Source: Telopea speciosissima
Lineage: Eukaryota > Streptophyta > Magnoliopsida > Proteales > Proteaceae
Reading direction: 5' to 3'
NCBI RefSeq assembly: GCF_018873765.1
Contig: NC_057925.1
Location: forward strand, 5,715,568 to 5,779,567
DNA: 64,000 bases
Under the pieces are notes generated by a model that was not told where the DNA came from, did no database searches, and was given only the letters and a program-made list of their open reading frames with translations. Of this stretch, positions 313-26,944 are shown in pieces. A program made the position numbers and the translations under genes. Position 1 is the stretch's first letter. Every line of letters starts with the position of its first letter.

Positions 313-506
313 TATCTAACTCCTCTCAGGTTCCCTGCCCGGTCAAATTCGTAGGTTCCTCTCATAGGGGGCTGGAAATGATAACTTCACCCCCTACCCA
401 AACACACTGCCCGGGTGGGGTGAGGTCGTCATTTTCACCCTCCCTATGAGAGGAACCTATGAACCTGACCGGACAGGGAACCTAAGAGGAGAAAAATTCC
501 TAGATA
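313..506. mobile_element. Hairpin MITE, GC-rich, related to the element at 5721-5872
   Basis: Seen: two long inverted arms. The left arm carries TCAGGTTCCCTGCCCGG and, about 130 bases on, the right arm carries its complement CCGGACAGGGAACCTAAGA. The arms extend outward to TATCTA at both ends. The centre is GC-rich, with blocks of the type GAAATGA...CCCCCTACCC. There is no coding capacity. No clear target duplication was found. Inference: a non-autonomous TIR element of the same broad group as the 9-bp-TSD elements listed below. Confidence 0.65.
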
Positions 507-689
507 GTTGGGTTTGGATGTTTGACCTAAATTTAGGGAAGGACCAGAGTGGAACTCTCTTCCCCCCTCCTCACTCTTTTTAAAATAGTAGTAGTAATAT
601 AGTGGTGTAGTGGCTTAATGGACTCCCTAGCTGACCACTTGTGGGCCCCTCTCTAGCCCAAAATGGGTCATTGTCTAACTTCGACATCT

Positions 690-1065
690 TTCCTTATAAT
701 TTCTCTTAAAATCATTTTAGGTCTACCTCGACTCTTTTAACTCCTTCAATTTAAATAAAATCACCCCTCCATACTAGAGCATTCAAGGGTCTCCATTGCA
801 CATATATATGCATTCAACTCAAATGAATTTTTCATTTTACCAAAAAAAAAAAAAAAAATCATGTAACTTATCATGTATTTGTGATACTCTTAAATTAGCT
901 CTAATTTGTTTATTCTTTATCTTATCTTTTATAATTTTATTACTCATTCATCTCAACATCTTCATAACAATTGCACCAAGTTTATCTATATGTTGGTTCT
1001 TCACTATTCAATATTCAGCTCCATACATCAAGTTATATAATTGTCGTATAAGATTTTTCCTGAGT
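690..1065 (-). mobile_element. LINE 3' fragment, RTE-like, old copy
   Basis: Seen: the segment matches, block for block, the LINE fragment at 58199-58650. Examples are the block around GACTCTTTTAACTCCTTCAA, then CTCCATACTAGAGCAT, then CATCTCAACATCTTCATAAC, then CAGCTCCATACATCA. It has more substitutions and an A-rich interruption near 840-858. Read on the minus strand this corresponds to the C-terminal tail after the reverse transcriptase. It is heavily decayed and has no usable reading frame. Confidence 0.55.
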
Positions 1066-1469
1066 TATAAAGAAATACATCGATCACACAACATTTCAGA
1101 TACACCCCTCCATGTCAGCCATCCTATTTTTATCCGAAAGGTCTTCTTTTGACAAAAAAAAAAAAAAACAAATTATTTGATCTTTCTCATGAGGAGAGGA
1201 GGGGGTTCTAGCTGCCGGAGCAAATGTCTCGCTTTTTTTTTTTCGTTTTTTTGGTTGAAAAATGTCTCGCTTTGAATTTTGAGCATTTTGAAAATGACAT
1301 AACAGTTAGTACTTATTGTAAAAACCTTTTTTCTATCCCAACCTAACGACTTTTAATAGTAAGAAGTAAGGTAAATTAATACTAACACTATCCTTAATCA
1401 ACCTCCTTTAAGCATGACTAAAGACATCAAATTGGTTATCCTCAACCAATACTATAGTTATGTTTCGGG

Positions 1470-1700
1470 TTGCTGACTCGACCATCACGGTTTTAGAAGT
1501 CGATATCGGATCGCTCCTAATGACCAGTTTGTATTGGTATCGACCGTAATCAATACCGATTCTAATACCTGACCAATACGAATCGGGTTATTAATATGAT
1601 TTTTTTTATTTGAGCGATACGAACTGAAACGAAATGGGTATCCGTATCGGCGGGGTTCTGAATCCATATCGGTACCTACCCAAAATGGATAAGAACATAT
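1470..1700. repeat. Dispersed TATCGG/CGATAC-rich repeat
   Basis: Seen: dense imperfect repetition of short words such as TATCGGTA, CGATAC and ACCGATTC on both strands. The same vocabulary returns near 8420-8530, 21210-21560 and 54950-55290. There is no coding potential or clear terminal structure. It is probably a decayed dispersed repeat family of unknown class. Confidence 0.4.
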
Positions 1701-1953
1701 TTTCTCAACTGCATAGACCAATTATAAAGTTCCATCTCTTTCAAGGGTATTTTAGTCAGAGAAGCAAAGATCACGTCGAATCAATCTATTCGCTCCCATG
1801 TTATGGCATTTTCGTAATATTTGGAAATTGAAAGATCATTTCAGTAAGCTCTTTCAATAAATATTTCAGAGATAGTGAGAGAAGATGGCGGCCTTCCTGC
1901 TAGATACAGTAGAGTGGTGCTTCTTCATTTCCTGCACTTACTGAGAAAAGCTT

Positions 1954-1958
<5 letters not shown>

Positions 1959-1987
<29 letters not shown>
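1959..1987 (+). repeat. (CT)n microsatellite upstream of the bHLH gene
   Basis: A pure run of CT dinucleotides lies about 0.8 kb before the bHLH start codon, with further CT-rich stretches near 2150-2160. Pyrimidine-rich tracts of this kind are common in plant core promoters and 5' leaders. The transcript start is not visible from sequence, so whether this is promoter or leader is open. The stretch 1861-2796 has no other gene and is most likely promoter plus 5' UTR. Confidence 0.7.
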
Positions 1988-1992
<5 letters not shown>

Positions 1993-2796
1993 TCAATCGA
2001 GCTTGCTGCCATTAATAGTAGCAGCGAGCTTTCTGTGGATGCTAAAAGCTTTAAAACCCTTCCTTGATTTCGGTGCTTTGGAGTTATATAAAAAGAAGAA
2101 AAGAAAGCGATTGGTTTCTCTTCTGCTTTTGCCTTTCTTTACTCTTTTCTCTCTCTCTCTGTCTATTCTACTTTCTGCTTTGAAATTTACTTCTTTAACT
2201 CTCTAGTTCCTCACAGTGATTTGGAGTTCGGGAATAGAAAGCTGTGGACTGTTCAGATCCAAGATTTGTGCTCAGTTCCTGTGTACACGTTTTAGATTTT
2301 GTTGTTCTCAGTGGCGGTGAACGTAGGGTAGCTTTTGCCAGTTTAAGCGATTCAGCTTTTTCTGGATTATTATTGGGAGCTCAGGAGGAGGTTATGTAGC
2401 GTTCAGAACGGGCGGTTGCTAGTGACTTTGCCGTTCTATTTGTGATTTAATGGGAAAGAGGTGGAAATGGAGAGGATTCATGTTTTCTGTTGTTTACTAT
2501 GAGTTGCTTTTTTAGCTTTCGATCTGTCTGAAGTAGTTTGATGCTTGAAGGTCTCGATTTTTCGGGGCATTCGAGAAATTCGTTGTTGATGGAGATTTGC
2601 TATAAGAGAGCAGAATTTGCCATTACTGCTGTCTGCTGAGTTATATTACTTGTTATTATTGGTTACGATCTAGGGTTTTTTTGCTGGTTTTTTCATTTCC
2701 CGATCTATTTATAACATATCATTAGCTACTTAGTTTCCCGAGGCAGAGGAGGGGGAGAAATTCCTGGAGTTGGAGTTTAGAATTTAGGTCATCAAG

Positions 2797-2909
2797 ATGT
2801 ATGCGTCTATAGCATCCTCAAAAGACATGAATCCTCTGTTCCCTGCAACTTTCAAGCATTCGGAAGGAGAATTGCATCAGAAGAACAGAGAAACCATGGC
2901 TTCCGATCT

Positions 2910-2941
<32 letters not shown>

Positions 2942-4776
2942 AGCAGGAGGTGAGTTCCGGCCTGATGCGATTTCGCTCTGCCCCGAGCTCCCTGCTTGCA
3001 AATTACATGGACGGTAGCAGCGAAGACGGGGAAGAAGGATGTGAGGATTTCCTACATCCTCGTTCTTCAAGTCCCGAGGCGGAGAGCATGTTTGCGAGGT
3101 TCATGTCTTGTGGTGGTGACGGCACTGGATCTCCTTCACTTGATCTTCGCGAGATCGGCGACAAGTCTCCAGTAATATCGGCTACGCCCACCGGAGCAGT
3201 TAGTCAGAGGAATTCTCAGTTCATAGCATCCATGAAGCACGAAGCAGCCGAGGTTGTTCCTCAGCAGAATGGATACTCTGCCACTGCTTCCCAGATGCTT
3301 TATCAAGCTCCGCCGCCGGTGCCTCTGCCTAGTCAGAGCTCAGCTTCCATGGATAACTCTTATGGGATGGTGAATTCGATAGTCATGGGTCACAGTCCTC
3401 CTCAAGTCAAGACTGCTAGCGCCAATTGCTCTAATCTTATCCGGCATAGCAGCTCTCCTGCCGGGCTTTTCTCTCACCTAAACGTTGAAAACGGTACAGC
3501 TCTTTCACTTCTTCGAAACTTATCCCTTTTATGTTTCCATAATTTCGAACAGTTCTCGGAAAAAAAATTTCATTTTAGCGAAGGATCGAGTTTTTAGTGT
3601 TTAATATTAGCTCCGAATATTTCAGTTATCGTTAATGAGCTAAGAACGAATTACTGAGACTTGGTAATTAACAGGCTACGCGTCACTGAGGAGAGTGAGG
3701 AATTTCAGAGCCGGGAATGGTACTAATGGAGAAGCAGCTCCAGGGGCAAGCAGGTTGAAGGGTCAGATCAGTTTCTCATCTGGGCCTTCTTCTTCTTCGG
3801 GGTTAATGTCTCAGATTTCTGAAATTGGGAACGAAAGCATTGGAGCTAATAGCCCAGATGACGGAAGCTTGGGAGACAGCAACGGTGACAATGGATGTTA
3901 CATGCCGGAGTTTCCGATTGGCGCTTGGGATTCTGCACTTGTCTCGGAGAATTTCTCTGGCCTCAAAAGAGCTAGAGTTATCGATGGAAAAATGCTTTCT
4001 GGTTTAAATCCATCGGAGACTCAGGTAGAATTATTGATGGTTTTCGTTTAATCATGAATTAAAGATCGAATTCGAGTCTCTCTTTTTTCTTTTTCTAATT
4101 GTGTTATTTCTCAGAATGGAGTAGGGACCCATCCTCCTGGTTTGACCCATCATTTTAGTTTGCCAAAGACCTCCACCGAGATTGCTGATAAGTTTTTACA
4201 GTTTCAAGAATCTGTTCCTTGTAAGATCCGAGCCAAGCGAGGTTGTGCCACTCACCCTCGAAGCATTGCAGAGAGGGTAAAACTTAAAAGCTTTTCTGAC
4301 GACTCCCATCTTCGTTTTCTCATTGCAGAAGAATATATTTATCTGGTTAAACTAATTTTCAGGTTAGAAGAACTCGGATTAGTGAACGAATGAGAAAATT
4401 ACAAGAGCTTGTCCCCAACATGGACAAGGTAAACCTTTTCAGACATCACTTCTCTAAGAACAATTTTATTCAATTTTATGTTTTAATTGGAAGGTCACAC
4501 ATTTTTTATGTTTCTTCTTCGCAGCAAACCAACACAGCCGACATGTTAGACTTGGCAGTGGAGTACATTAAAGACCTTGAGAAACAGGTCAAGGTATGGG
4601 GACAAGAAATCAGAAGTCAGAACCTGCAAAAGTCCTTCAAATTAAGCAACCCTTTTTTTTAATCTTTCCTTGACAATTTCCATTTTTTCTTGCAGAATTT
4701 CAAGGATAGTCAGGCTAACTGTACCTGTTCGAGCAAGCAGAAACCATGCTCAAGTCCTGTGCTACGGGGTGACTAG
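2797..4776 (+). CDS. bHLH transcription factor, bHLH122/bHLH130 (FBH/AKS) group
   Basis: Six exons: 2797-3493, 3675-4024, 4115-4276, 4363-4428, 4525-4593, 4696-4776. Joined they give about 474 aa with uninterrupted frame and GT-AG introns. The DNA-binding region is near residues 387-448: basic part with HPRSIAERVRRTRISERMR, helix 1 KLQELVPNMDK, loop QTNTAD, helix 2 MLDLAVEYIKDLEKQVK. The HxxxxxxR(I/V)R spacing and the RAKRGCATHPRS lead-in are typical of the FBH1-4/AKS group. In Arabidopsis these activate CONSTANS or are ABA-responsive kinase targets in guard cells; the role here is inferred from that group. The N-terminal half is low-complexity, with six His then six Gln (CAT x6, CAG x6) near residues 39-50, then RFRSAPSSLLANYMD, a motif usual in this group. 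The first ATG of the frame was chosen as start. The protein is nuclear by family. Confidence 0.93.
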
Positions 4777-5360
4777 CTAGCTTCTGTAAAGATATAAAAG
4801 AAGAAAATATGGCAGAGGAGATAGTGTGCAAAACTTTCTCTTTGTAGGACAACAGAGGAGGAAGAAGAAGAGGGAGACAGGGAGTAAAGAGTCTCCAATT
4901 GCAAAGACGGAGGATGGATCCTTATCCCGACAAAAGCTACCGATGACGCCATAGAAGAGATGGAAAAAAACTGTATAGCATATGTTCCACAAATTAGCTT
5001 TGTAATGCACTTTACTGGTTCAGTTTATTAGTAGAACCAATTTATCTGAAGTCTTTCAAAGGGGGAGCATATAGAACTGCAATTTGGACAGCAAAATGTG
5101 CTCATTTCAACGGTCAAAAAGGGGTTTCCACCTGGGGGGATCAAGTGTGTGTACCACTGAACCTTACCTTCTGTTGCTGTGTTTGTCTTGGACCTGCTGT
5201 TGATCTGTTTTTTGTGCTGACCATACCAGGTTGGTTCTCTACTTCTCTTCCCTGATAACAATGATCTTCATTTTGTAGGGAGGAGTTTGATCAATGAAAG
5301 GTACAATTTTGTAACTGGGCAATTTTGATTGGTGGATTGGACAAGTGCCTACTGGTACCA
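4777..5360 (+). other. 3' flank of the bHLH gene
   Basis: The region follows the TAG stop and is AT-rich, with no reading frame that resembles a protein. It probably contains the 3' UTR and polyadenylation site (AATGAAAG and TTTGTAAC words near 5295-5315), but no single signal is decisive. Confidence 0.4.
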
Positions 5361-5365
5361 GATTA

Positions 5366-5581
5366 AAATCCTCTTCAATTTCTTGATCGCGGAGTGTGGT
5401 GCAGGTTGGGATTGAGAGGTTGACACTTCACAAGTGCGACATCCAACGGTCTAAGTTTGATTGAGTCAGTTCTATTTCTCTTTCTTCTCGAACTCGACCC
5501 CATTGTATGTTGCCTGTCAGATGTTGAGCTCTCAGCTCCGAATTGCACCGCATTGCACTTTTAGGGAGTTTGAGAGGATTT
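5366..5581 (-). mobile_element. TIR element, reverse copy of the family at 13334-13543
   Basis: Seen: reverse-complemented, this stretch aligns with 13334-13543 over its whole length. Shared words are AATCCTCTC at the ends, GTGCAATGCGG, GTCGAG.TCGAGAAGAAAGA, and CGTTGGATGTC. Ends are inverted (AATCCTCTTCAATTT on the left, GAGTTTGAGAGGATT on the right). It is non-coding and looks like a roughly 210-bp MITE. Confidence 0.6.
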
Positions 5582-5720
5582 TTTTTCGTCTGGTATCTCA
5601 CACCATATTCAATATACTCAGTGACTGAAGGCATCATCCGATGTCTAGGTCCAAAAAATAGATTCATAAGCTCCCAAACTTAATAGTTTCTAATCGAGGT
5701 TAAAAACCCTAATTGGATCT

Positions 5721-5872
5721 TTATCTCCCTCACCCCTCTAGTTCCCTGCCCGGCCCAATTCTCCAGTCTCCTTAACGAGGGGGTGTAATGAACACCCTAC
5801 CTCTGCCCAAATACTCTGTCCGGGTGGGATCCACCCCCCTTATTAGAGGGACTGGGTAACTGGAGGAGATAA
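5721..5872. mobile_element. Hairpin MITE related to 313-506
   Basis: Seen: TTATCTCC at the left end is mirrored by GGAGATAA at the right end. The CTAGTTCCCTGCCCGG and GTCCGGGTGGG blocks match the element at 313-506. The centre reads AATGAACACCCTACC, a variant of the core shared by many hairpin elements in this window. It is non-coding. Confidence 0.55.
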
Positions 5873-6622
5873 TTTTCCCACATGGAAAGATAATGTGAGG
5901 GGTGGAGAAAGTTTCTCAAGTATATGAAGGGTGCACTGATTTGAACAAATCAAATCTTCTGTATTTTCTAGTTTCAAATACGTTCTGGACCAAAAATTTA
6001 TTCCAAAGATCCATACCAAACAAAAACTATAGAATTGAGTCAAACACACACTCATTTTTTCTATCGACCAATTATGGGAGGAAGAAATACTTTGTTATCT
6101 ACTTGATCTCTTTGCTTCCCAGTTTAGCAGTGTGATCTCCTTTGTCTCATTTCCCCCAATGAGATCTGCTCCGTGCTGGGTTCATTTTAGGGATTACAAA
6201 CAACTACCTGGGTCTGCATCTCATTAAATGCATCAATGTTCAAAATCCATCCCTATGTATCATCAACAATAGTAACACAACCTACAACCCCCCTCCCCCC
6301 CCCTCTCCTAATCCACTCGACTTTGAACTTAAAAGGGAAATCTTGTTGTAATCCTCCTCTATACGAGGGCCATCTTTACGACGTTTGTCAAAAAAATGCT
6401 GGTTAAATAAGGGTAAAAGAACTCTACCTGGTTTCATTGCTCCCCGTGACATAGGAGTACACAAAAGTCCCACCCTGTCATGTGTTCTCTCATTGACCCT
6501 ATGCTGGTGTAGGTGCTACATGAATAGAGAGTGGTTTTTTGCCCATTAATTAATTAGAGCGATGGTGAAATGTTTCCTTGGAAATCCATTGTGCTTGTCC
6601 CTTGTCAAGGTTAATATGGTAA

Positions 6623-7050
6623 TTATAATCATTGGATATTTTAGGAAAGACATGACAGTAATTGTCAATGTAAAATGTTTCTAATTTGGCGGCGTTTGCT
6701 AAGCCTCTCTTATAATCATTGGATATTTTAGGAAAGACATGACAGTAATTGTCAATATAAAATGTTTCTAGTTTGGTGGTGTAGGCCAAGCCTCTCTTAT
6801 AATCGTTAGATATTTTAAGAAAGACATGATAGTTCTTGTCAATGTAAAATGTTTCTACTTTGGTGGTGTATGCTAAGCCTCTCTTATAATCATTGGATAT
6901 TTTAGGAAAGACATGACAGTAATTGTCAATGTAAAATGTTTCTAATTTGGTGGTGTAGGCTAAGCCTCTCTTATAATCATTGGATATTTTAGAAAAGACA
7001 TGACAGTTTTTGTCAATGTAAAATGTCTCTAATTTGGCGGTGTATGCTAA
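6623..7050 (+). repeat. 87-bp minisatellite, about five units
   Basis: Seen: units begin with TTATAATCATTGGATATTTT at 6623, 6710, 6797, 6884 and 6971, an exact 87-base spacing. The units differ by only a few substitutions. The period is a multiple of three, so one minus-strand frame stays open across about two units (repeat words FYIDNYCHVFPKISNDY), but there is no sign that it is a gene. The array ends in a short CT run at 7052-7066. Confidence 0.9.
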
Positions 7051-7066
7051 TCCTCTCTCTCTCTCT

Positions 7067-9592
7067 CATTAATGAATTATCTCCCACCCACGCCAAGTCC
7101 GTGAACACTCCCTAAATTTTTTTAGGGTAAGGGTTACTCATGCCACTCGCTAGGGGGAGGAGGGGAATCTCTCACACCTCACCAATCATGAAATGGAAAA
7201 TAGTTTTGTCAATGAGGGACTCATAGGGCTAGTAAGTTAATATGCTTAAAATGTGAAAAGACGTGAAAAAGCATTCCCATACATCTTGCATAGGTGTCTT
7301 TTTCCTATATTTTTTTAGGGAAAGAGTTTCTGTCGAGAATCATGGCCTACGTCAATGCCCCTACGTCTATCTCTCTCTTCCTTCGAAGAGGAATAGAGAT
7401 TTCATTTCATCAAGGGAAGCAGAGAGATAGACACAGGGGGGGAATGTCTACAAAAGCTAGCATGCATCCTTGTATCTTTTTAACCATTAGTATAATTCCC
7501 ATGCACCCTCTTGCATTTCTTAAATTTTCATTACTTTATTTTATCACGTGGAGAACTTTATTTACTGAAACTTAGCATAATTCAGGATATTGAGTTCTAC
7601 TTCCATAAAATTTGACTCCATCTAAGAGCCTCCCAATGCACAAGGCACTCGCTACTATAAGATCTGTGAGAAATAAATATACGTAGTCTTACCCCCGTTT
7701 TATGAAAAAATTATTTCCATGTTTCGAACCCCCAATCTGATAATTACAATAATACAACTTAACCGTTGTGCCAAGATTCACCCGTATAACATTTTGACTC
7801 CATCTGATCTACAAAAAACTTATGTCATCATGATAAGGTTATATTTTCACAGAAAATAGGATAATGTTGTTATCTTATTTGAAAACTAGGGTCCACTTTA
7901 AATCTATTTGAATGTGACTGATGTGTAAAACACATCCATAAGATGATACCAATCCATTCTTAATGAGGTAATGTTTTGTCTTATGAGTGTGGTGAGCTTC
8001 ATTGTCTTTAATGGAAGGGAGGCAGTTGGGTCCCTCAAGAGTTAATGAAACCTTGGCTTTATCATATGCTTCCTATGTTTGCTTTGTTTCTACTTTCTAT
8101 ATATAGACATCAGAATTATATGACTTTTCCTACTTTTGCTAAAATTGTTTAAACATGTTTCTTATAGAAGGGGAGCTGTCTTCACAAACTTATCAGGATA
8201 ACCCTTCTTCAACCCTTATAATAGAACAAAAAATTTTATCAAATCGAATTTTTTGGTAACCTTTTTTTTTTTTTTTTTAAACTTATTTGAAAATTAAGAT
8301 CAATTAAAATCTATTTGAATGTGACTATAGATGAAACACATCTATGAGATGGCTCCAATAAATTTTTAATGAGATAAAGTTGTGTAATATGATGTTGATC
8401 TACTATTGTACTATTTCAAGTTTCAACTAAGGTTTCAAAGATTGAGATTGGATCGATCTGGTACAATTGTTCGATCCGAATCAAGATTGGTGCTCGTATA
8501 CCTAATCAATATTGACAGATACCAATCGATACTGGGCTTAAAATAAAATCCTTAATTTCAATAAAAATATTTTCATAAGAAAATAAATTACTATTGATTA
8601 AAAATGATTTATATTTTACATTAATTGTCTTTTTAAGGATTGTACATAACAAGGAAGTATTTGGTCATGGTTAAGTGAGGAATAGCTATATGTTTTTGAG
8701 AAAATGACATCTTAGAATTTAAATGAGAAAATTACATTTTGAAATTTCCAATAAAATTTGTTCATATTTTTGTATTGCATCTCAGTGAAATATTTTTTAA
8801 AGAAATTTTTGTCACAAATCCTAAGAAATTTTTTTTAAAGTCAAATAGAGAAAATAAATATCTTTTTTATTTAAAAAATATGGGGTAAAATTGAAGTATG
8901 AAAATGAAATATCCTATCTTATAATCTAATTGTCTTTCAAATTTTGTGGATACACAGCCCATGTCATTTCTTAGGTATTTATTGGCAAAATTCAGACTGT
9001 ACACCCTAAGGATGATGCACAATTGTGGCAAATTAAACTTGAAAGAAATGGTTAAAAAGTCAATAATTTGAAAAAATAGAAAGTTGAACTATCTAATATA
9101 ATGAGAAAAGTCCAAAATTTAGGTAATGCAATCAAATAAGACCACCAAAATTTAACTTGTAATCTATATGTTCATCCATAATTAATGGGAAAAGGTTCTA
9201 TGAGCCGTCACAAGAGCGTACGTTAGCATTCTCTCTCTCTCGTGAAATGACCTCATTGTCCTCATGTAACCAACATATACTTCTTTTTAATCTATGAAGG
9301 TTTCTAGGGTACGAGAGGAGGCGGATGTCATTGTTCAAATTGATACTTCAATGGTTCAACCAGAGTGCGAGTCCCCTCGCTGATTCAAACACAAGCCTTC
9401 ACTCTTGGTACACTGGCCATGGGTTGAACTCACTTAAGTTGTTAAGTAGTGATTAATTCCATACATCCAATGATTGGCACTACTAGATCAACCCTCTACA
9501 AAGATAAAAAAGTAGATTAAATTCTATTAAATAAAGTGAGAAAACCCACGAAGTACCAACTGGAATAAATAAAAACAGCAGCATTATCCATA
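7067..9592. other. Intergenic, AT-rich, with a diverged direct repeat
   Basis: No gene is supported. The clearest structure is a direct repeat: 7858-7985 and 8265-8395 share AAATCTATTTGAATGTGACT, AAACACATC and TAATGAG in the same order, about 400 bases apart. The part near 8420-8530 is the TATCGG-type repeat. The rest is AT-rich without recognisable content. Confidence 0.45.
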
Positions 9593-9602
9593 TATAAATT
9601 AT

Positions 9603-9774
9603 GGAAAGATGTTCTCTGCATTGCGGGCACAGGATACCCCCTGACACATGGGAGTGGGTGCAATGACTAATTTGCGCCCCTGAATGACTGAAATGACTGC
9701 CCCATCCCATTCCATCCCATGTGTCTTGACACAACTTGCGCCCCCGTGCACTTCCAGACAGAGAACATGACCCC
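9603..9774. mobile_element. MULE-type hairpin MITE, TSD ATAAATTAT
   Basis: Seen: a 172-bp element between exact 9-bp direct repeats ATAAATTAT (9594-9602 and 9775-9783). The ends are inverted: GGAAAGATGTTCTCTG at the left and CAGAGAACATGACCCC at the right. The centre is GC-rich with CAATGACTAATTTGCGCCCC and GAAATGACTGCCCC. A 9-bp duplication is the hallmark of Mutator-like transposition. It has no coding capacity, so it is non-autonomous. Confidence 0.85.
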
Positions 9775-10180
9775 ATAAATTATATATAAAAAAGAGGGAA
9801 AGGGAATCCATGAAGTTTCAACTTTCTTTAGTTCTTTAGGTAGACTTCTTGTTTTGATCATATATTAGATTTTGGTTCTTAGCGACTAAAGAGTAAAAGG
9901 AGTGGTTGGGAAGGTTTGGACAGAAGGATTTTTTTTTTAAATTTCCCCCAATTTTGGGATCCAAAAGTGAACACAGTTGAGTGGGCTTAAGAGAACCAAA
10001 CCTCAGAGAAGCATCTATCACACTCATTACTCAAATTGGAAAAAGCATAGGGACATGCATGGAATTAAAGTTCAAATACTTTCCTGAATTGTCATGGAGA
10101 AGTGGAAACAGTGAGAGAAAAGAGGGGGGGGGGTGGCATAGTAGTTGGATCCAACTAATGGGTCACTAATAGGTCGAGAG

Positions 10181-10615
10181 TAAGCCTGTAAACGGATCGG
10201 ATTCGGCTCGGATACGGATCGGATGTAATCGAATTCGGATATTTCCTGGTCGAATACGGATACCTCTAAACGGATTCGGATGGATTCGGATGCGGATCGA
10301 ATTCAAATTTTCGACCATTCGTTTACACCTCTGCCTTGTGTAACCCGAACCTTCCTCCCCTTAGTGGATATAATTCACTCTCAATCCATAGTTTTAGATC
10401 ATGATTCTCTTTTCCTCATATTCTAGAACCTGTTGAATCTTCAAAAATCCTCAAGATCATTATTCACTTAAATTTTTATAATTAAGTATTCAGATTCGGA
10501 TTTTTATCGGAGTATTTGGATTTTTTTCCGGATATCTCTAATCGAATACGAATGCCCCTTAACAGATACCGATGCGGATCGAATTCAAATTTTCGGTTAT
10601 CCATTTACAGCCTTA
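10181..10615 (+). mobile_element. hAT-like non-autonomous element, TSD GTCGAGAG
   Basis: Seen: 435 bp between exact 8-bp direct repeats GTCGAGAG (10173-10180 and 10616-10623). The termini are inverted: TAAGCCTGTAAACGGAT at the left, ATCCATTTACAGCCTTA at the right. Inside the ends are runs of CGGATTCGGAT words. A reverse-oriented relative lies at 49118-49528. An 8-bp duplication fits hAT elements. No transposase is present. Confidence 0.85.
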
Positions 10616-10939
10616 GTCGAGAGCCACACAGATCACAATAGCATGGAAGTGAGTGCCACATCATTGATGATGTCACATCCCCAAAGGCTAAAATGCTTTT
10701 TGACACTGAGAGAGATAGGGAAGGGATGGATAGACGTGGCCCAGTAAGTGACCAAGGATTGGGCCGCATCTTTGAAGCTTTGTGTTTGGGTTTTTTTTTT
10801 TTTTGGTAAAAATTGTGTTTGGTTAAGAGCATCACAATTTACAACAAAAAAAGGCTAATGGTGATGTATGTGAGAGAGAGAGAGAATAATGTGGACTATC
10901 TGTGGAGAGTCCATGGACTTTATTTATCCATATCGGTAT

Positions 10940-11545
10940 CCAGTAGGGGTCCAAGTTTGGCCCTCTACGTCTTGAACTATTCTGTGTTCGAATAGGGTTT
11001 GGGCTGGATTTTTCAACCTTGAGGATAGGTTAGAGTTCAATTTTTCAGGCCCGAGGTCAGGTTTGAAGTCTAGGGCTGAACCCAGCCCGACCTCGACCCT
11101 GAATTTATCTGTTATTACGTATTATATTTTCATATTTTACCATTAATTCATTTACATACTTTACAATTATTATATTTACCTTCTAGGTTTTTTTTTTCTC
11201 GTAGTTCTGAAAGGGGCTTCCCTTGTTTGTTTTCAACTTTCTCTTGAGATGTATGCATAGAATCATTGGTTTAGTAGATGAATTATAAGCCGGAGGGTTT
11301 GGTTTGGAGGTGGAAGAACTTCCAATATAAATGCCTCCTTGAATGTCAAAACAGGGTCAAGGTCAGGGTTAACCTGGTCCAATCAGGGTGGTCTTGGGAT
11401 GGGCTGAACCTGACAAGGCTGGGTCGGGGTTGAGTTTTTAGGCCTTGAGTCAAGACGGGCCTAAACTTAGCTAAGGGGATTCAAGGTTGAGCTGGGGTTT
11501 TAAAAAGCCCCACCCAACCCGGCCCTGTAGCAACCCTCGACCGCA
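10940..11545. repeat. GGTC/GGCC-word dispersed repeat
   Basis: Seen: low-complexity repetition of words such as GGTCAAGGTCAGGGTT, GGGCTGAACC and GGCCTGAG on both flanks of an AT-rich middle, with GGGGTCCAAGTTTGGCC near the start and CCCGGCCCTGTAGCAACCC near the end. The piece 39236-39440 uses a similar vocabulary. The class is unknown and it is non-coding. Confidence 0.4.
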
Positions 11546-11737
11546 TTGAAAAAATTCCGATAATTTTTTTCTACCATCTTACCCTTTCTTTGTTCCAATA
11601 CCACCGCTATGGTGTCGGTCATAGACAATATACTAATACGAATTAACCAAAACAAAAAACTTTATGCTTTAATTTAATTTTTAAATCAAAAGGGGATTTG
11701 GTTGCAAAGTAAATTTTAATAACTATGTTTGAAATAT

Positions 11738-11912
11738 GTGAAAAAATAACTCTGTGGGAGAGTGGGGCGACTGCACCCAAATACAAAGGGGGTGAAATGA
11801 CCACCTCGCCCCATGAATAGCAGCAATGCCGTCAATGGTGCTTTTGTGTGTGTTCTCATTGGCTTCCGTGCACAAGGAGGGGCCACACTCCCCCCACAAG
11901 AAACACTTCCCC
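11738..11912. mobile_element. MULE-type hairpin MITE, TSD TTGAAATAT
   Basis: Seen: a 175-bp element between exact 9-bp repeats TTGAAATAT (11729-11737 and 11913-11921). The ends are inverted (GTGAAAAAATAACTCTGTGG and CCACAAGAAACACTTCCCC). The centre holds GGTGAAATGACCACCTCGCC and a GTGTGTGTTCTCATTGGC block shared in reverse with the elements at 53275 and 63072. Confidence 0.85.
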
Positions 11913-11949
11913 TTGAAATATTAGGGGGATCACTTTTTAATGAGGTCAA

Positions 11950-13330
11950 ATATGGATCAGATTTATTAGACAGCCCATATGAGAGAAAGTAGAGCCATAC
12001 ACCATTTCAAGACCTAAAAATGCTCAAAAAACACATAAACACATAAAACTGTGTTAGACTCAAAATCAGTTTTTTTATAATGGAAACGTTATTATACAGA
12101 GCCCAACGAACCACGATCCTCACCAATATTCTACAAACCACAATCCTCATCAATATGCTACATTTGCACATTCAAGAAAAAGGGGGAGGGGAACATTCTT
12201 GAAATTTTGCAAAAGATTCAACAACCTCATACATTTACAATTATGGATCCCTAATGAGGTATTGAACATTAATTATTCAAAAATGAAAGACAAAAAAAGA
12301 TATTCATTAAATAGGATGGAAATTGTTTAATTTTCTTTCTTTAATTAAACCAAAAACTTGGAATTTGGAAGACAACAATATCCATTAAGAAACATACAAA
12401 ACTACCACTAAGGCACATTTGAGTAGTACATTCAATTTCATCACTAATTAACGACTTAATAAGACTTTTCCCATACCTAATTTTGAGTATTTAAACCTTG
12501 ATATAGACATCCTTTGAAAGAAAACAATAACTTTTATGGCTTTGTTTGGGTTTTTATTTATTTTTTTAATATTTTAAAATTTTCCCAAATTTTAATTTTT
12601 GTCTTTTTATGCATGAAAAATAGATATCTGATACGACTATGAATGGTAAAATGTGATTGCATTACCTTGATTGTAAGTTATCCTCAATGAGAAATATATA
12701 CAAAATAAATTACCCAATGTGGGTTATCTTACTATAGAATATACAATCAAAACGTGATTATCTAACTATAAATGTACGGTCAAATGGATTACAATCTAAA
12801 TGTACACCTATGAACACCGATGCATGAAGTGTCATGTTAACGATATCCTCTGATTCCTTCACTAAGCTATAGTGAAAATGCCTTAAACTAAATTTAGGAT
12901 AACCTCAAAAATTAGAAATGCTAACCTCAATTAGAAATGCTATAGTGAAATGTTGGGGCTTGAATTTTGATATGTGGCTCAAAAATTATGTGCGTCTCAT
13001 GAATTTTACAACCCAATCACATATAAGAAAATTTGTATATTCTTTGTTCCCTTATTTTAGGGTTGTCAATCGGCCGGACTGAATTTTTAGGCATATACTA
13101 GGCCAAGTTGAAGCTTATTCGTTAAGGTGAAGTCCGGTTTGCGATCTGATTCAATTCCGATTTTTCTATCTGTTTTTCTTAATGGGTTATTATCAATCCA
13201 CTATCTATTGATTTTGGTTTTCATTTCCGATTAGTTTGTCGGTTAAGTTTCAATTCAATTGTATTTATTTTTTTGATCATTCTGATTGGTTTGAGCTGGA
13301 ATCTAACACCCTATTCCTATTTTATAGGAT
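11950..13330. other. Intergenic, AT-rich
   Basis: No gene, RNA or complete element was recognised. A short imperfect repeat (CCACGATCCTCACCAATATTCTAC and CCACAATCCTCATCAATATGC, compared in short blocks) occurs near 12110-12165. From 13060 a TTGTCAATCGGCCGG word starts a piece related to the GTCAATCGG-type repeats at 37102-37730 and 47215-47490. Confidence 0.4.
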
Positions 13331-13333
13331 ATG

Positions 13334-13543
13334 ATCCTCTCCAATTCTCTAAAATGTGCAATGCGGCAATTCGGGGGTGGAGATGTCGACACCTGGCAGC
13401 TTAGATCCAATGGTGTCGAGCTCGAGAAGAAAGAAAAAAATACCGGAGTCAATGAGTTTGAATCGTTGGATGTCCTAGCTGCTAGGTGTCGACATCTCCA
13501 TCCCGAACTGTTGCACTGTACATTTTAGAGAATTGGAGAGGAT
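13334..13543 (+). mobile_element. TIR MITE, about 210 bp
   Basis: Seen: near-perfect inverted ends GATCCTCTCCAATTCTCTAAAA and TTTTAGAGAATTGGAGAGGAT, with a second inverted block GGAGATGTCGACACCT / AGGTGTCGACATCTCC just inside. A short open frame across it is a by-product of the palindrome. A reverse copy lies at 5366-5581. No unambiguous target duplication was found. Confidence 0.8.
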
Positions 13544-14004
13544 TAAAACCCGGTTCCCAATGTCAATAGATCATAATTAACTGATATCTTCTTTTTGGTA
13601 GAATATAAAAATTTGGTTAAATTTCACTCTTCACAAAAATCTCTTATTTGGTTTTTTTTTTTTGGTAAAATCTTATTTGGTGTAATAATTCATAATCCAT
13701 ACCATATAAAACATCTCTAATGGTAATGGTAAATCTTGCTTTGAATGGTCGGTAAAGATATGATTTGAGCTATTCCCAACGGCTAACAAAATGGTCTTCA
13801 AAGTTCAAACGTGACTGAGTAAACCCTTAATCAATTTCCCTCCCAAATCTGAAAATTTGAAACTCTCGAGTCTCGAACTTACAAAAATCCAATCAGAGTA
13901 CAGACAGAATCGGAGCCCCTCCCTCCCTCCGGAGTTTCCGAAGGAGTGATTCTAAGTTATATTCTCAGTGCTGAAATCACGCCCTCCTTGAAGATCTTGG
14001 GGCC

Positions 14005-17000
14005 ATGGAAGACGATCAAGAGCTCGACTTTGACGCCTTTCATGCTGCCCCAGCTCTTGTATCTCTCGCTGCCTTCTCGCCTTCCTTCACGCCTTCTTCT
14101 CGCCGTCTGTCGAGCCATTTCAGCCCTCTTGGTCGCCCGGTTCCCTCAGCTCGGCAGCTGGCTTGGGTTTCTCTCCAAGGTCGTCTCATTGGTGCGGAAG
14201 AAGCAAGCTCTGTTAAAACCATTGGAGGTTCCTTGAACCCATCAGAAGCCTTGGCGTGGGAGCTCTTTAGCCCCATTCATCGAATCCTCATCGTCGCCGT
14301 GGTCGCTGTAGCTACTGCCGAGTTGAAGAAATCTCAACAAATATGCCAACTTAAAAGATCCGTACTTCTCAGGGTTAGTAGTAATTGCAACTTCGTAAGC
14401 CTCTCTCTTTCTTTGCAGAAAACAAAAATTTATTAGCTTTATGTATTAATGAACTCTGAAAGGGAGGGATTCATTCAAGGATGATTACTTATTTTTTCCT
14501 TTGAACTGTTACTTCGGTTACATTTTTGAAATTAGGGTTTCGGCTGTTGGGGTCAATAGATTCAGGGGAGTGGTTTGAGCGCCCCCTACCAATTTTGAAT
14601 CTCTCACCTATGATATAAATTTCTTCATAACCATTTTAAAACTGTTGCTGAAGTTAACCCCAAATGCCATGACTCTTGCATCCCTCCAATGCTCAGCTTA
14701 CTCCAAGCCAAAGAAAACTTATTGTTGCTGATATTGGACAGAAAGAAAATCAATATAAAACACCACACAATGAAAGTTGTGATCGTGTGTGCTATACATT
14801 TTTAAACCCTCCTTGTAGATCAGAGTTTTTCTATTGGCTATATGTTTTGTTTCTCTACGATTTTCCCTTTACTTTACATGGTGGTTTGCCCCCAATAGAC
14901 TCTCTTTGCAAGTGTGGGGCAACCCATTATTTACCATCACTTGCTGGTCAAAGTTGACATTAACCCCATACCCTGATAATTGGCTCAAACAGAGTACTTG
15001 ATGTTACAGTTTGTTCAAAAAAAGTTGTGAATTGTGAAATACCTTAGGTCATGTGGGCTTGAGGAATTGGTACCATGGTTTAAAACCAGAATTTGGTGTG
15101 AACACCAAAGAGATAGCATAGATTGAAATGTAAGACAATTTCATAATAGTCAGTACAGATATATAAACCAAAGGATAATTCTGAGTTTTTGACAATTAAC
15201 ACAGAACAGCTACAAAGATGTTGTAAAAGTGATCCATGTAGAAGTAAAGGACGGGCTACCCCTGGGGGAGGGAGGGTGGGTGGAAGAATCCAAATCACTA
15301 CCCTAGATTTATTGTACTTTGTTGGCATTTTCTTCATATATTTTTATTTAATTTAGCTCTAGTTTTGCTCCTTTTTTTACTGTACACAGTTGAAGCATTT
15401 TATTTGTTAATCGTTAATTTTTTTTTAACACGGTTTTAAAGTTTCAATTTGACTGTCAGGATCAAGTTTTGTCAAGCATGCAACAGAAGCTTGACGATCT
15501 ATGCAACCAGGTGAACATCATGAAAGAACAGCCTGAAAATGAAGTTGATCTGTCATTCACAAATGACAAAAAAATCCTATCCAACAATGATATCAAACTT
15601 GATGAAACTACAATTTCTCCTTGTGGTTGTCAAGTTTGCTATGAGCATCGTGTTTTATCAAATGGTCCAATGGTAAGAACCCTAATTAATAAGTAGAAGT
15701 AATATTGTTCCATTGAAGTGAGGTAGGACTCTTCTTTTGTTGTTGTATTGGTTGTCATTGTCTTGTCTTATGGAGGCTGAAAATGTGAACCTTTATTTGC
15801 CAATTTTGATTCAGTGTGACTTTTTTGAGAACTCATGCTGCGGAGATGAGGTATTCAAGTTCAAGATACCTTCCTACAATGTAGCAGAGCAAGAAGAGCG
15901 CCGGATGTCCAACTTGTCTGACTGGGCTTCAAGTGTGAATTCTTTAATAGATATTCACTTAAGAGAATATGACCCAAAAGCCAAGTTCAAGATACCTTCC
16001 TCAAATGTAGCAGAGCAAGAAGAGCGCCGGATGTCCGACTTGTCTGACTGGTCTTCAAGTGTGAATTCTTTAATAGATATTCAGGTAAGAGAACATGACC
16101 CAAAAGCCAAGTTTAGGAGTTTGTTCTGATTTTACGCTTTAGTCCTGGGGAATACTAGACAATCATTAACTAGTGACACAATGTATTTGATAATTTGGGT
16201 ATTAATGGGTTCGACTATGGCTGCCTTACCAAGGAAAGGCTTATGAAACTTGGTTTGAGTTTTGAAGATTATTGTTTTGTTCTACATGCTTTTTTTTTTT
16301 TAAATTACTAAACTGATATTTAGCCAGGTTTTATTTTGTTCTGATACATCACAATGATCTAGCAACTAGAGATTAGTGTTTTGTTCCTTGCGTTGGAAAA
16401 ATCGTAGAACTTGTACAATTAACGTACACTCATACTCAGATTAAGTTTTGTTAGTATTTTAGAGACATGCCCCTCAAGGATGTCTGTCTTACAGCCTAGA
16501 CTTGGTTCATTCTGATACTATCTTGCTCATGGCTGGCCAACAAAATCCATAAAAGAAAGCCATTAGTCAGCAATCAGATTGTTGTTGGTTGTCCCTAAAT
16601 AATTCATAGATATCTTGAAAGGGTTCTATTGTTATTGTTTCCAAATTTTCATGCATCAAATTGTGAATCTGCTTAACATGATCATCGCTAAGGTGAATTA
16701 TCTGATTGGCAATTCTTAGCAACTGTTGGTGGTAATTATTGTGGTTATAAACTTGCTACCTAATGCAGATTAGAGTTCACTTGCTGCCAGGTTGTTCTTT
16801 TTTTTATTTTTTATAATGTGTTGATGTATTGCTTACAGCTCAACTCGGAGCAAGATATCTACAACCTCCAGCAGGAATGCGATGAAAAGGATGCCACCAT
16901 AAAAGAGCTGTCAGCTTCTCTTAACGCATCTGATGCTGCTAGTTCAAAGGTAATTGGCATTCTTTATGCTTTACTTATACTTTGTTAGAACTTTTGTTTC

Positions 17001-17728
17001 TAATGTATTATCTTTCTCTTCTTAATTACAGAGAATTGCAGAGTTAGAAGATGTTATTAGAAGGAAAAACATGATTATTACAAAACTAAAGAAAGATATG
17101 GCGGTTCTAGAACAAAAGGTCAGAACATGAATTTTAAGTTATATTTTTTCCGATAGTAGGAAATATTCACTAATCAATATCTTGAGCCAAAATCTAAGTA
17201 TTAAATATGGAAATCAAAATATAGGTGGTGCATCTAACAAGGCTTCGGAGACCCTCCTTCACTGCCTCAAACTCAAACATTAGTCAACCTCCGATCATGG
17301 CAGATAATCTCCTTTATGATATGGAGAGTAGCACTAGTCCATCGTCTTCTGACCCAGACTCTCCTATTAAAGCTCAATCGTATGAGGATGAAAAAAGACC
17401 TGCTCTTGAGGAGGGAACTAGTTTGAGTAGAGAACAGACGGTGGGTAAGGCAAAGGCTCCAATCTCCCTTCCAAGACTGGCAGACAGTTCTCAGAAGCAG
17501 CGGGCAAAGGCTCCAACCTCCCTTCCAAGACTAGCAGACAGTTCTCAGAAGCAGCTACCTATGAGCCCTCTAAACGAGAACTCTATGAATCACAGACTTG
17601 ATTCAACAATGAAGTTGAGGCAGAAACAATTGGTACCAACTGATACAACTAATAGAGATATGAAGAGGATTAGGAGACACACTCAGACAGTGTCAAAGGA
17701 CAAAGCTCAACCGAAGAGACGGGTATAG
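14005..17728 (+). CDS. Unrecognised plant coiled-coil protein with internal tandem duplications
   Basis: Six exons: 14005-14373, 15460-15672, 15815-16084, 16839-16949, 17032-17118, 17225-17728. All junctions are GT-AG and in phase 0, giving about 517 aa. The N-terminus is acidic (MEDDQELDFDAFHAA) and precedes a conserved-looking block LNPSEALAWELFSPIHRIL and a short hydrophobic run. Exon 2 begins a coiled coil (SSMQQKLDDLCNQVNIMKEQ) and ends with a CGCQVC cysteine cluster. Exons 4 and 5 (LNSEQDIYNLQQEC, RIAELEDVIRRKNMIITKLKK) are strongly coiled coil. The tail is basic and Ser/Pro-rich (SLPRLADSSQKQ twice), ending RRHTQTVSKDKAQPKRRV. Exon 3 contains a 42-codon duplication and exon 6 an 18-codon duplication (listed separately). 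I do not recognise the family. A cytoskeletal or scaffold role is only a guess from the coiled coil and basic tail. Confidence 0.8.
15857..16108 (+). repeat. 126-bp tandem duplication within exon 3, spanning the old splice donor
   Basis: Seen: unit 1 is 15857-15982 and unit 2 is 15983-16108, each starting AAGTTCAAGATACCTTCC. Unit 2 contains the working donor ATTCAG|GTAAGA at 16084/16085 plus about two dozen intron bases. The same place in unit 1 reads ATTCACTTAAGA, with no GT. The former intron bases of unit 1 are therefore read as coding sequence (LREYDPKA). The unit is 42 codons, so the frame is kept. Confidence 0.9.
17450..17557 (+). repeat. 54-bp tandem duplication in the last exon
   Basis: Seen: units 17450-17503 and 17504-17557 differ at only a few bases and encode AKAPISLPRLADSSQKQR then AKAPTSLPRLADSSQKQL. 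The length is 18 codons, so the frame is kept. It is independent of the exon 3 duplication. Confidence 0.92.
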
Positions 17729-20200
17729 TAAGTTCTTCTTAAATGTCAACTTATAATTGTTCACATGTAGTATGTTATACTTAAATGTCTACATAAACTC
17801 TCCCAGCCTTATCCAAGTCACATGTGGTTTTCTACATGAATCCTGTTCCACTATTCCACTTTATCCAGTGCCATATCAATGTCAATAGCATAAGGTCTGA
17901 ACAATAACTTTCAGGATTCATGTTCTATTAGGCTAAAGAATTTGTGCAATCTGAAAATGTCTCCACCTATATCCAGATGTATCACTGTGTTACACTATGG
18001 TGCTCAAATAGATATTCATTTCACATGGTCTTGGAATCAGTGATAATAAGTGCTCATGATGCTCACTACAAGTATCTGAAAGGCATTAAATCCATCACAT
18101 TTCCTTTCAATAATCAATATTACTCAAAACCACCATATTGTTTGAGGCTATGTTTCCTGGACACTTCAAATTATGAGCCATACCCATGTTGGACATCTTA
18201 AGTAAGCCCAAGAGAATGAAAAAAATGGGATCTTTGTAGCACTCAATTTAGATGATTTCCTGTGTCCAGGTAACAGAGATTCAAGTCTAATGCTTTGGTT
18301 CTTGGCAAGTGGAACATATTGCATAACATGCTGCAATTATTCAAAAAAAGAATAGATATTGATGTCTATTGAATATGTTGGAACAAACAAAGATTGAAAC
18401 TCGCAAAAACCAAAATTTGTGGGAAGATTTTCATGGAGGAAGTCTTCCCACTAAAATTATTTTCTTCTTTTCTACCTCCCCATAATTTCGTGAACTTCAA
18501 TATGAAAATCAGTATTCTTTGTGTAATTAACTTCAATAAGAGAATCAGTATTCTGGGTTTGTTTTCTAATATTTTTGTTTTTTTTTATTTATTAATAGGT
18601 CAAAGTGGAGATGTGATATTTGATGGATTCTATTTTGTATCAAGTATTGGGAGCATCAAGTTGGCACATGGCATACCCCTTTGCAGTTCCAAAATTACTG
18701 TGTCTGGCAATGGATATCCAGCATGCAACATTGCGAACATATATTATCATAGGGCACTATAATATTTATAGGTGTAAGAAAACTTTAGTAGTTCATATAT
18801 TTAATACTGAAATACTTGGAATATTAAATTAGCTAGTGAAATTATGTAATTATAGAATAAGGAAAAAGTCACTTGGATGCCTTGCTTTCGATAGCTTATG
18901 AAAGTGCCAATCTTTATTGTGCCATGTGGGATTATGATGTGGTAATTTTGACTGTTGGACAGATGGTACATGGTGAGGATTGGCCATGGGTCAAATTTCA
19001 GAGCCTAATTCAATCAGTACCCTTCTGTATTTTGGCATGCATCTTCGTGTATGTTAATGCATGCTTGTAGTACTCTGTTGTCGTGCAATATCCCATAGTT
19101 GTGAATTTCAAACCTCTATTTTGCTGCATGGAAAACTAAGTTTGGGTTGAAATTTTACATGTGAGTTGGGGAGGGGGATTTTGTGTTCCATCTACTCTAT
19201 CACGTGGCAGACATGGATCATCTTTATAATCTTATCAAGAAAGAAATGTTACTTAAAATTGCTTTAGAGAAATTGTTTTTCTTTTATTTTTTTTATTTAG
19301 TGCCTGATTAACTTCTTCACTTGTTATGGTTGAATATTTTCATCTTCCAGAAACAAACTTGTAAGTGTTCAGATTCCATTGGAGTTGAAATGTAGTATTT
19401 TTGAAGGATTAAGTTTTCCTTCACTTGTAGAGAAGGGAGAATCCCTTAAGCATTGGTGATCTGATCTTCTGACTTCTTGTCATCATAAACTCCCAATCCT
19501 AATGTATAGGATTATAAATACCCTTCCCCATGCAAATCAAAGGGTCAGATCTCCATGGTTGAGGACTGAGGAGATTTTGGGTGAAAGAGGCACTTGGTCC
19601 ATTTTATAATATATACTCTTCATTTATATTATAGAGAAACTGTACTTCCCTAGGCAAGGGGAAATTTTTAAATATAACTTGTTAAGTAGAAGAAAATTTC
19701 ATGCAGTAATAGGCAAGGGGAAATTTTTTCTAACTTGTAATTCTTGAAAGAAAAGTTACAGTAACAAATGTAAGCTGTTGTTTATCCAAGCTAGTTTCTG
19801 CTCTAACTATGGCTCTAAATGGGAGATCTGCTCTTTGTTAGATAGTGAAGTGTTCATGGATACCTGAAAAACAAGAATATTTTAGAATCCAACTATGCAA
19901 CCTCATACTCAGATTTGAGCTTCATATAGCGAGTTAGTTCTCCATAAGACTACCAAAACCTAATATGTATGAAGTGATCAGCCACTTTCTCCAACTAATA
20001 TTCTAACTGTTGACAATTTCATTTGATATTAATATGGCTTGTAATAATTGAGGACTTCTTGAACAGAAAAGTGCTTTATTATCAATAGGAAAAGATTATT
20101 AGCTTGTTACATGGAGTTGGGGCCACATCTTTTGGTCATTCCTGTCTTTTAAGTGTAATGAAAAGTTTAATAAAGCATCCATTGTTTCCTAACAGTTTAG
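17729..20200. other. Intergenic; 3' flank of the coiled-coil gene
   Basis: AT-rich, with only short, unconvincing open frames (for example 18394-18762). No known domain, TIR pair or RNA gene was seen. The word AGGCAAGGGGAAATTTTT occurs twice (near 19652 and 19711). Some of the first few hundred bases are probably 3' UTR. Confidence 0.4.
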
Positions 20201-25000: not shown

Positions 25001-26788
25001 ATACATGGTATCTGTGGGGCAAGTGTGCCTCGTATGTCAGAAGATGTGGCTTGGCAGTGAGGTGGAATGCCTTGGTTTTAGGGATTTTGGTATATGCTAC
25101 TTGAGCATTTCATGTGTTGGGTGCTCTGGTGGCATTTCTGTGGAGTATGTGTATTAGGTGGTGAGTTTTTACATCAATTAATGGGATTTATATTTTGGAA
25201 TCACTTCTCTGGAGTGATTTTGAGGGAATTGGTAAGGTTTAATTTATTATTGCAAGTTCAATGAGTCTATTTTAAGACGCTTAGGTCGATAAGGTTTGTT
25301 CATTGAATATTAGGTCTGAGTATTTTCTGAATTAGAAACTCTTTTTGCCCCTACCATGTTTTTCTTGTCTCCCAAGATTTTTCCCCTTGTTCTTGTGGAG
25401 GTGTTAGGTTGTTTTTCTAAATTCCACTTTTTAAACAGTCATCAGATGGATCCTTCCATTCCAACTCAATGGCTTTTTTCAGGTAGAATATAAGTGAATT
25501 TTTTGAAGAGTTGTAAGGAGCCTTCACAAGCATCACTCTTGGTGTCATTCACAAAGAACTTATATTTGCTTGTGGCACTATACATGGTTAATCAGGTCCT
25601 ACTTTGGATTACTCTACCTTGATTTACCTCACTTCAGTTCTTTGATCTCAATGTGTGTGCTGGATTCTGATTTTATTGCCTCAGTGAAAATTAAGGAGAC
25701 AAACTATGAAGTTTTTTGTGAATAAGAAGAAAAATTTTGTGGTGTAGGGGCAGATGGATGGCTTGAAGCGATTAAGATTATGGTCCAGCATAAAGGGTTA
25801 CTGGTTGAAATATTCTATTTTTGGTTCTCTGGTTTTCTGATATGTCATTTTAAGACAACCTATATGGAAGACTTTGAATTCCTTGTCGAAATTTCCAGAG
25901 GGAAGAGGGATCAGGAGTTTGGTTTGGTGGGATTGAGACAGGAGTTAGAAGGGCCAAGACTAATGTCTCTGTGTGATGCTGCCTCCCTGTCTTAAACAGC
26001 AAAAATTTCACGTGGGTTCAAATTATGGAAATGTCATGATCGTATCTTATTGAAACTTTTTGAATATCTTTTCCTTTGAAGAAACAAAGTTAAGAACCAG
26101 CTTTTCATCTTTATTTTTTTAGAAAACATGTCCCTGAAAATGCTTACTAGTTTTGCCAGAACCTACACATGCACAAACTGAAGGGTTTCAAGTTACTGGC
26201 AGTGTGTGCCCCGAGTCAAATGGATAAATTCTATTATGTTATTCTCTGTTATCTTCTGGTTTTATCAAATGATATGATTCTCTATTTATTCTTTATCACT
26301 ATTCATTTTCTTACACAGACCATGGGTAGTGGATCAGGTACCGTGCTGTGACAAGTGCATACTATCGAGGAGCGGTGGGGGCATTGCTTGTTTATGACAT
26401 GACCAAGCGTCAATCATTTGATCATGTGGCAAGATGGCTGGAGGAACTTAGAAGCCACGCTGATAAGAACATTGTCATTATGCTCATTGGCAACAAGTCT
26501 GACCTAGGAACCCTCAGAGCAGTTCCAACTGAGGATGCCAAAGAGTTTGCCCAAAGGGAGAATCTCTTCTTTATGGAGACATCAGCCCTTGAGGCTACAA
26601 ATGTCGAGACTGCTTTCCTAACTGCCCTTACAGATATATACCGGATCGTCAGTAAGAAGGCTCTCATTGCAAATGATGAATCAGAATATGGAGGGAAGTC
26701 GGCGCTTCTCAAGGGAACAAACATTGTTGTGCCTGGCCAGGATCCAGAATCCAATGGAAGAAAATTCTCATGTTGTGCCTCTTATTAA
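22031..26788 (+). CDS. RAB GTPase, RABA4 subgroup
   Basis: Two exons, 22031-22257 and 26338-26788, joined in phase 2 (GAAAG|GTAC), giving 225 aa. All G boxes are present: GDSAVGKS (residues 22-29), effector region [16 protein letters not shown] at the end of exon 1, GNKSD (the usual form is NKxD, so S is tolerated), and ETSALE. The C-terminus FSCCASY carries the CC pair for double geranylgeranylation. The N-terminal [21 protein letters not shown] and the [15 protein letters not shown] and [22 protein letters not shown] blocks match plant RABA4 (Rab11-like) proteins. In other plants these act at the trans-Golgi/recycling compartment in polarised secretion; that role is inferred by family. The intron is 4.1 kb, long for this family. 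Three AGs sit within 20 bases at its 3' end. Confidence 0.95.
22258..26337 (+). other. Large intron of the RABA4 gene
   Basis: A 4,080-base intron with GT donor (GTAAGC) and acceptor GGATCAG. Open frames inside it are short and AT-rich and show no known domain. A local scrambled repeat occurs at 23560-23725, where TTTTAGAGAAACTAACATCCTTCTA appears three times in short form and AACCATGTATTTCTT twice. No transposon ends were identified. Confidence 0.7.
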
Positions 26789-26944
26789 GTATACTGCCTA
26801 CACTTATCTTTTTAAAACTTCTTGTGCGAATCATTGTTGTGCCTGGCCAGGAGCCAGAATCCAATGGAAGAAAATGCTCATGTTCTGCCTCTTATCAAGT
26901 ATACTGCCTACACTCCTCTTTTTAAAAGTTCTTGTGAGAATCAT
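26723..26944 (+). repeat. 110-bp tandem duplication over the RABA4 stop codon and 3' UTR
   Basis: Seen: unit 1 (26723-26832) holds the last codons, TAA stop and start of the 3' UTR. Unit 2 (26833-26942) repeats it with about a dozen differences. Both start ATTGTTGTGCCTGGCCAGGA. Unit 2 lies beyond the stop, has TGTTCTGCC in place of TGTTGTGCC and TATCAA in place of TATTAA. The period is not a multiple of three, so it is now non-coding transcript or flank. Confidence 0.92.

Follow-up and report, generated by a model that had tools for sequence, protein, structure and literature searches.

A tandem duplication across an exon-intron border and the probable turning of an intron start into coding sequence in Telopea speciosissima

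Gene model at the locus

The window analyzed here is a stretch of 64,000 nucleotides from the genome of Telopea speciosissima (C10:5715568-5779567). On its plus strand we assembled by eye a model of six exons; once joined, these give a single open frame of 517 codons plus stop (Table 1). All five introns have GT-AG borders, and all five lie in phase 0. Among the 17 bases scored upstream of each acceptor, the number of pyrimidines is 9, 11, 10, 15 and 5 (exons 2 to 6 in order). The acceptor of exon 6 is weak (5/17), and the border of this exon is therefore the least sure of the model.

Searches with the protein gave it no name. Pfam returned three matches, all far below the cut-off, and a sequence search of the PDB at E-values up to 1 returned none. 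A scan of 13801-14100 for bacterial promoters and terminators, which is of a type unsuited to a plant gene, found nothing.

Table 1. Features of the gene model and of the duplicated segment (window coordinates).
Feature	Position	Strand	Remarks
Exon 1	14005..14373	+	123 codons from ATG; donor AGG|GTTAGT
Exon 2	15460..15672	+	71 codons; donor ATG|GTAAGA
Exon 3, present form	15815..16084	+	270 nt, 90 codons, phase 0 on both sides; contains the whole of unit 1 and the exonic 102 nt of unit 2
CAAGTT, exonic copy at the start of unit 1	15856..15861	+	also at 15982-15987 (junction) and 16108-16113 (intron)
Unit 1	15857..15982	+	102 nt of old exon, then 24 nt that were probably intron and are now read through
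Lost donor, unit 1	15956..15964	+	CACTTAAGA; CT where unit 2 has GG at -1/+1
Putative intron-derived codons, LREYDPKA	15959..15982	+	matches the start of intron 3 at 22 of 24 bases
Unit 2	15983..16108	+	exonic up to 16084 (102 nt), then 24 nt from the start of intron 3
Retained donor, unit 2	16082..16090	+	CAG|GTAAGA (CAGGTAAGA), 8/9 to consensus; intron begins at 16085
Intron 3	16085..16838	+	GC 0.34 and T 0.38 along the whole intron
Exon 4	16839..16949	+	37 codons
Exon 5	17032..17118	+	29 codons
Exon 6, coding part	17225..17728	+	stop TAG at 17726-17728

Extent and boundaries of the duplication

Exon 3 and the start of its intron contain a tandem duplication of 126 bp, detected by Tandem Repeats Finder at 15856-16113 (period 126, 2.0 copies, 94% matches, score 467). 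The two units lie head to tail and are identical at 119 of 126 bases; the 7 differences correspond to a divergence of 5.6% (Jukes-Cantor 0.058). Such a repeat is far beyond chance. That it is in frame and open is less remarkable, as a length divisible by three is expected a priori in one case out of three, and eight random codons are free of stops about two times in three.

Both the duplication and its boundaries can be read off the DNA. Positions matching at an offset of 126 form a tract of 132 (15856-15987 versus 15982-16113) with 7 mismatches inside it and one mismatch flanking it on each side. This tract equals one unit plus a microhomology of 6 bp, CAAGTT. The exonic copy of this motif sits just before CAAGATACC, and the intronic copy begins at the 24th base of intron 3. 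We compared this with the background in 13801-18800: among 630,000 pairs of break points 60-199 bp apart, a microhomology of 6 to 29 bp was present in 0.24%, a share that leaves out longer matches such as the repeats themselves. The low background share, together with CAAGTT at the break points, makes a microhomology-mediated event likely.

Of the inferred original exon 3 (144 nt), the unit takes in 102 nt, and it extends over the first 24 nt of the intron that follows. It begins 42 nt inside the exon, and the acceptor was not copied, so that the event is not a tandem duplication of a whole exon.

The gene carries a second tandem duplication, also in frame, in exon 6 (17449-17555; 54 bp, two copies, 96% matches). 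It encodes AKAPxSLPRLADSSQKQ twice. Unlike the 126-bp duplication, this repeat has no evident microhomology at its ends.

Donor sites and read-through in unit 1

Candidate donors were scored against the consensus CAGGTAAGT. The donor of unit 2 is the sole strong one; other GTs scanned in 15815-16139 reach at most 5 of 9 matches. At the corresponding site of unit 1, the G at -1 and the G at +1 are both gone, which leaves no GT and no standard donor. The frame runs on through the 24 bases that follow. In the unit 2 state, the equivalent 24 bases would read VREHDPKA, likewise without a stop.

Exonization by exon extension is recognized, among other signs, by coding bases homologous to intron bases, by an old splice site that is lost or bypassed, and by a frame that stays open. 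The first of these is found at 15959-15982 (22 of 24 bases, an assignment that depends on the gene model). The second is found in the replacement of CAGGTAAGA by CACTTAAGA, and the third in 42 codons without a stop in the joined frame of 517 codons. Intron gain would imply a new intron between or within the copies, and the GTs of exon 3 ahead of the unit 2 donor, at 5/9 or less, point to none.

These data bear out most of the first-pass annotation of the DNA, which had described a unit made of most of exon 3, its donor and about two dozen intron bases, with the protein text AEQEERRMS-LSDW-SSVNSLIDI common to both copies. The donor of unit 2 is intact as that annotation had it, and the old intron start is read through in frame in unit 1. 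Its further statement that loss of the upstream donor would be needed to keep both copies in one exon goes too far. With both donors present, use of the unit 2 donor would already give the long exon, because the unit 2 state reads VREHDPKA without a stop; the long form did not strictly require that the upstream donor be lost. The effect of the loss would rather be to make the long form constitutive, instead of merely possible, and from the sequence no other form is now evident. Of two 5' splice sites equal in strength, the acceptor-proximal one is often preferred.

A different view of splicing is that the long exon is unused or only partly used, with alternative splicing dropping one unit, for example by joining exon 2 to a cryptic acceptor that lies within unit 2. 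The mature protein would then often keep a single copy. When sites with at least 10 pyrimidines were considered, some AG sites in both units had 10-12 of 17, against 9, 11, 10, 15 and 5 of 17 for the acceptors of the model itself. A junction of exon 2 to 16016 would also keep the frame (201 nt from 15815). The site at 16015 is however a copy of the unit 1 site at 15889, which a single-unit ancestor would also have had. Moreover, unit 1 is without a strong donor, and exon 3 has an acceptor of its own (TTCAG, 11/17 pyrimidines). We therefore regard it as unlikely that the long exon is unused or only partly used.

For exon 3 alone, a structure was also predicted with no alignment as input (mean pLDDT 65.6, pTM 0.27). 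Helices were predicted for residues 23-52 and 65-89. The putative intron-derived residues, 49-56, would thus run from the end of the first predicted helix into the region that separates it from the second. This prediction is too uncertain to build on.

Direction of the change

The two units alone are silent on which state of the donor is old, and the reading of unit 1 is open. The 24 bases could thus have been coding before the duplication, with unit 2 gaining its donor later (CT to GG) and its tail becoming intron. Base composition gives this reverse direction some support. The 24 bases in question do not have the composition of an intron, either in unit 2 (GC 0.46, T 0.08) or in unit 1 (GC 0.38, T 0.17). 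The exonic part of unit 2 has GC 0.42 and T 0.28, and intron-like values are reached in 16109-16208, after unit 2 (GC 0.33, T 0.38). The shift to intron composition therefore lies beyond unit 2 rather than at the donor, though 24 bases are few. The exon-like composition of these bases does not favour the model in which intron became coding.

Other evidence points the opposite way. Beyond unit 2 the composition is that of an intron and differs from that of the unit's exonic part. If the frame is continued from 16085, past the unit 2 donor, a stop is met at intron codon 15. The GTs ahead of this stop, at 16111, 16119 and 16123, have 4, 4 and 2 of 9 matches, so that no evident donor would have been available to an older and longer exon. 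The stop and the weak GTs make the tail of unit 2 better read as intron, and the matching bases of unit 1 would then be former intron. In addition, the reverse direction would need a donor of 8/9 to have arisen by two changes. On balance the change from intron to coding sequence is favoured, and we consider the reverse improbable.

The claim of the first-pass annotation that a donor and an intron start were turned into coding sequence thus stands as the best reading, in view of the stop at codon 15, the single 8/9 donor and the 6-bp microhomology. Its description of the locus as a readable case of protein made from an intron goes too far, as the intron origin is drawn from the gene model.

Differences between the units

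The 7 differences fall in 6 codons, and the amino acid is altered in all 6; 2 of the 7 are transitions. The absence of silent changes (0/6) has a probability of about 0.24, given that 21% of single changes are silent, and 6 codons have no power in such a comparison. Adjacent pairs of differences number two (P = 0.035 for at least this many). The 3-base donor core holds 2 of the 7 differences, for which a hypergeometric test, applied post hoc, gives P = 0.008 if the differences are independent. If GG to CT was one double mutation, a hit on the donor is not rare, and the fairer figure is the probability that the core holds one or more of the 7 differences (P = 0.16). The donor of unit 1 is lost, and the differences demonstrate neither constraint nor positive selection, nor selection for the loss of the donor.

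The number of differences also bears on the idea of an assembly or haplotype artefact, in which the second unit would be absent from the plant. At ordinary plant rates, a divergence of 5.6% corresponds to some millions of years, which speaks against such an artefact. A copy produced by such an error should be almost identical, whereas the difference between the units, 7 of 126 positions (5.6%), is far above the heterozygosity of 0.76% given for Telopea speciosissima in the relevant passage of PMC13080361. We hold an artefact to be very improbable indeed.

A two-step model

Taken together, the observations are in our view quite probably explained by a microhomology-mediated tandem duplication across the exon-intron border, with the upstream donor lost afterwards. 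Replication slippage or end joining between the CAAGTT of exon 3 and that of intron 3 would have copied 126 bp in a single event. The product would have had two donors 126 bp apart. The upstream donor would then have been destroyed (CAGGTAAGA to CACTTAAGA), and exon 3 would since end at the downstream donor only. With a unit length of 42 codons and no in-frame stop within the 24 intron bases, the duplication would have added 42 residues to the protein; 34 of these would repeat old exon sequence, and 8 would come from the intron. The order of these events, an ancestor with a single unit and a GT donor, and splicing of the mRNA as modelled are what we infer from the gene model and the two units.

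It is conceivable, if rather doubtful, that border-crossing duplications of exon ends are a two-step, low-cost route to new protein, with both steps readable in this gene. In the first step, the old upstream donor would still splice the extra copy out, and the change might drift nearly unseen. In the second, a later loss of the upstream donor would free the whole in-frame segment, including the intron-derived residues; here the release would have taken one double substitution, GG to CT. If this is true, such a duplication would be near-silent at first, and the new protein segment would be freed later by donor loss alone.

Relation to known cases

We compared the locus with published systems, as described in the passages of the papers cited. 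The closest likeness is to a potato gene (PMC4974935), in which a short tandem duplication across an intron-exon border gave a new intron, with RNA-seq and related species as proof. In both plant genes a tandem duplication crosses a border and the copies differ in being treated as intron or as exon. In potato the copied segment consisted of the 3' side of an intron with the beginning of an exon, and an intron was gained, whereas here the end of an exon, its donor and the start of an intron were copied and intron probably became coding sequence. The potato case rests on RNA-seq and relatives, and the present one was read from sequence alone. The exon extension proposed here is the mirror image of that intron gain.

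In plant MADS-box genes (PMC4852290), exonization is described in which 3 to 21 bp of former non-coding sequence became coding in frame beside an exon. Former non-coding bases adjoining an exon would likewise be coding in frame here. The border shifts of the MADS-box genes were inferred from relatives, whereas in the present gene the putative former intron lies between two copies of the exon, and its source may be read within one gene. Domain 2 of echinoderm Alx1 (PMC5758115) is a further case where exonization, by extension of an exon into an intron, has been proposed as a source of new protein sequence, as we propose here. Domain 2 is ancient, the trace of its source is gone and the function of the protein was tested; in the present case the source is visible and the gene is known by its sequence only. 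In Drosophila (PMC2891723), introns were gained by tandem duplication inside exons. There too a tandem duplication changes the number of possible splice sites, but introns are made from coding sequence, which is the reverse of the direction favoured here.

The process would thus be a known one, exon extension, brought about by a known kind of mutation, a border-crossing tandem duplication, and this reading is well supported. Among the matches listed from the open-access literature, no other published case of this exact direction was found; such cases may exist in print. Internal tandem duplications of FLT3 in leukaemia may cross exon-intron borders. This parallel was set aside, as the passages of PMC10486946 considered do not bear on border crossing.

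Two aspects seem to us of wider interest. A single gene shows the probable origin of eight new residues and the base changes involved, for which a comparison of species is usually needed. Border-crossing tandem duplications may, moreover, lead either to intron gain, as described for potato (PMC4974935), or to the turning of intron into coding sequence, as here, according to which splice site survives.

Other copies and dispersed relatives

The genome (822.9 Mb in 1287 contigs) was searched for further copies. With 15857-16108 as a DNA query (E-value up to 0.001), no second copy was found besides the window, and a protein search with exon 3 (E-value up to 10) returned the window only. A second copy in the same genome, considered as a witness of the single-unit state, was rejected on these results.

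The whole protein (E-value up to 10) gave 17 matching pieces, 13 of them below 1e-5. These 13 comprise 6 pieces from the exons in the window itself and 7 pieces elsewhere that resemble exon 1. The other 4 are two more exon-1-like pieces (contigs C7 and C11), a match to residues 39-130 on C207 (E-value 7.6) and a match to residues 260-361 on C6 (E-value 0.038), which contains stops. At the C6 place (L018), tblastn found just a 22-residue piece of exon 3 (E-value 0.92), and it found no better relative of exon 3 among 11 loci (L007 and L009 to L018).

Elsewhere in the genome, at least 12 places hold fragments resembling exon 1, at 74-84% identity (region 13971-14315, in exon 1 and just ahead of it; at least 13 matches with the window included). 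Four of the eight 10-kb loci compared (L014-L017) have main pieces of about 0.9 to 2.5 kb in common, at 86-90%. This suggests that the exon-1-like pieces at these four loci belong to a repeat, perhaps a transposon, with a captured piece of exon 1. Upstream of the gene, 10187-10616 is 83% identical to a place on C11 (L012:8922-9352) over an alignment of 442 columns and is probably a dispersed repeat. Tandem repeats outside the gene are found at 6623-7058 (87 bp, 5 copies, 90%) and at 26722-26944 (110 bp, 2 copies, 92%).
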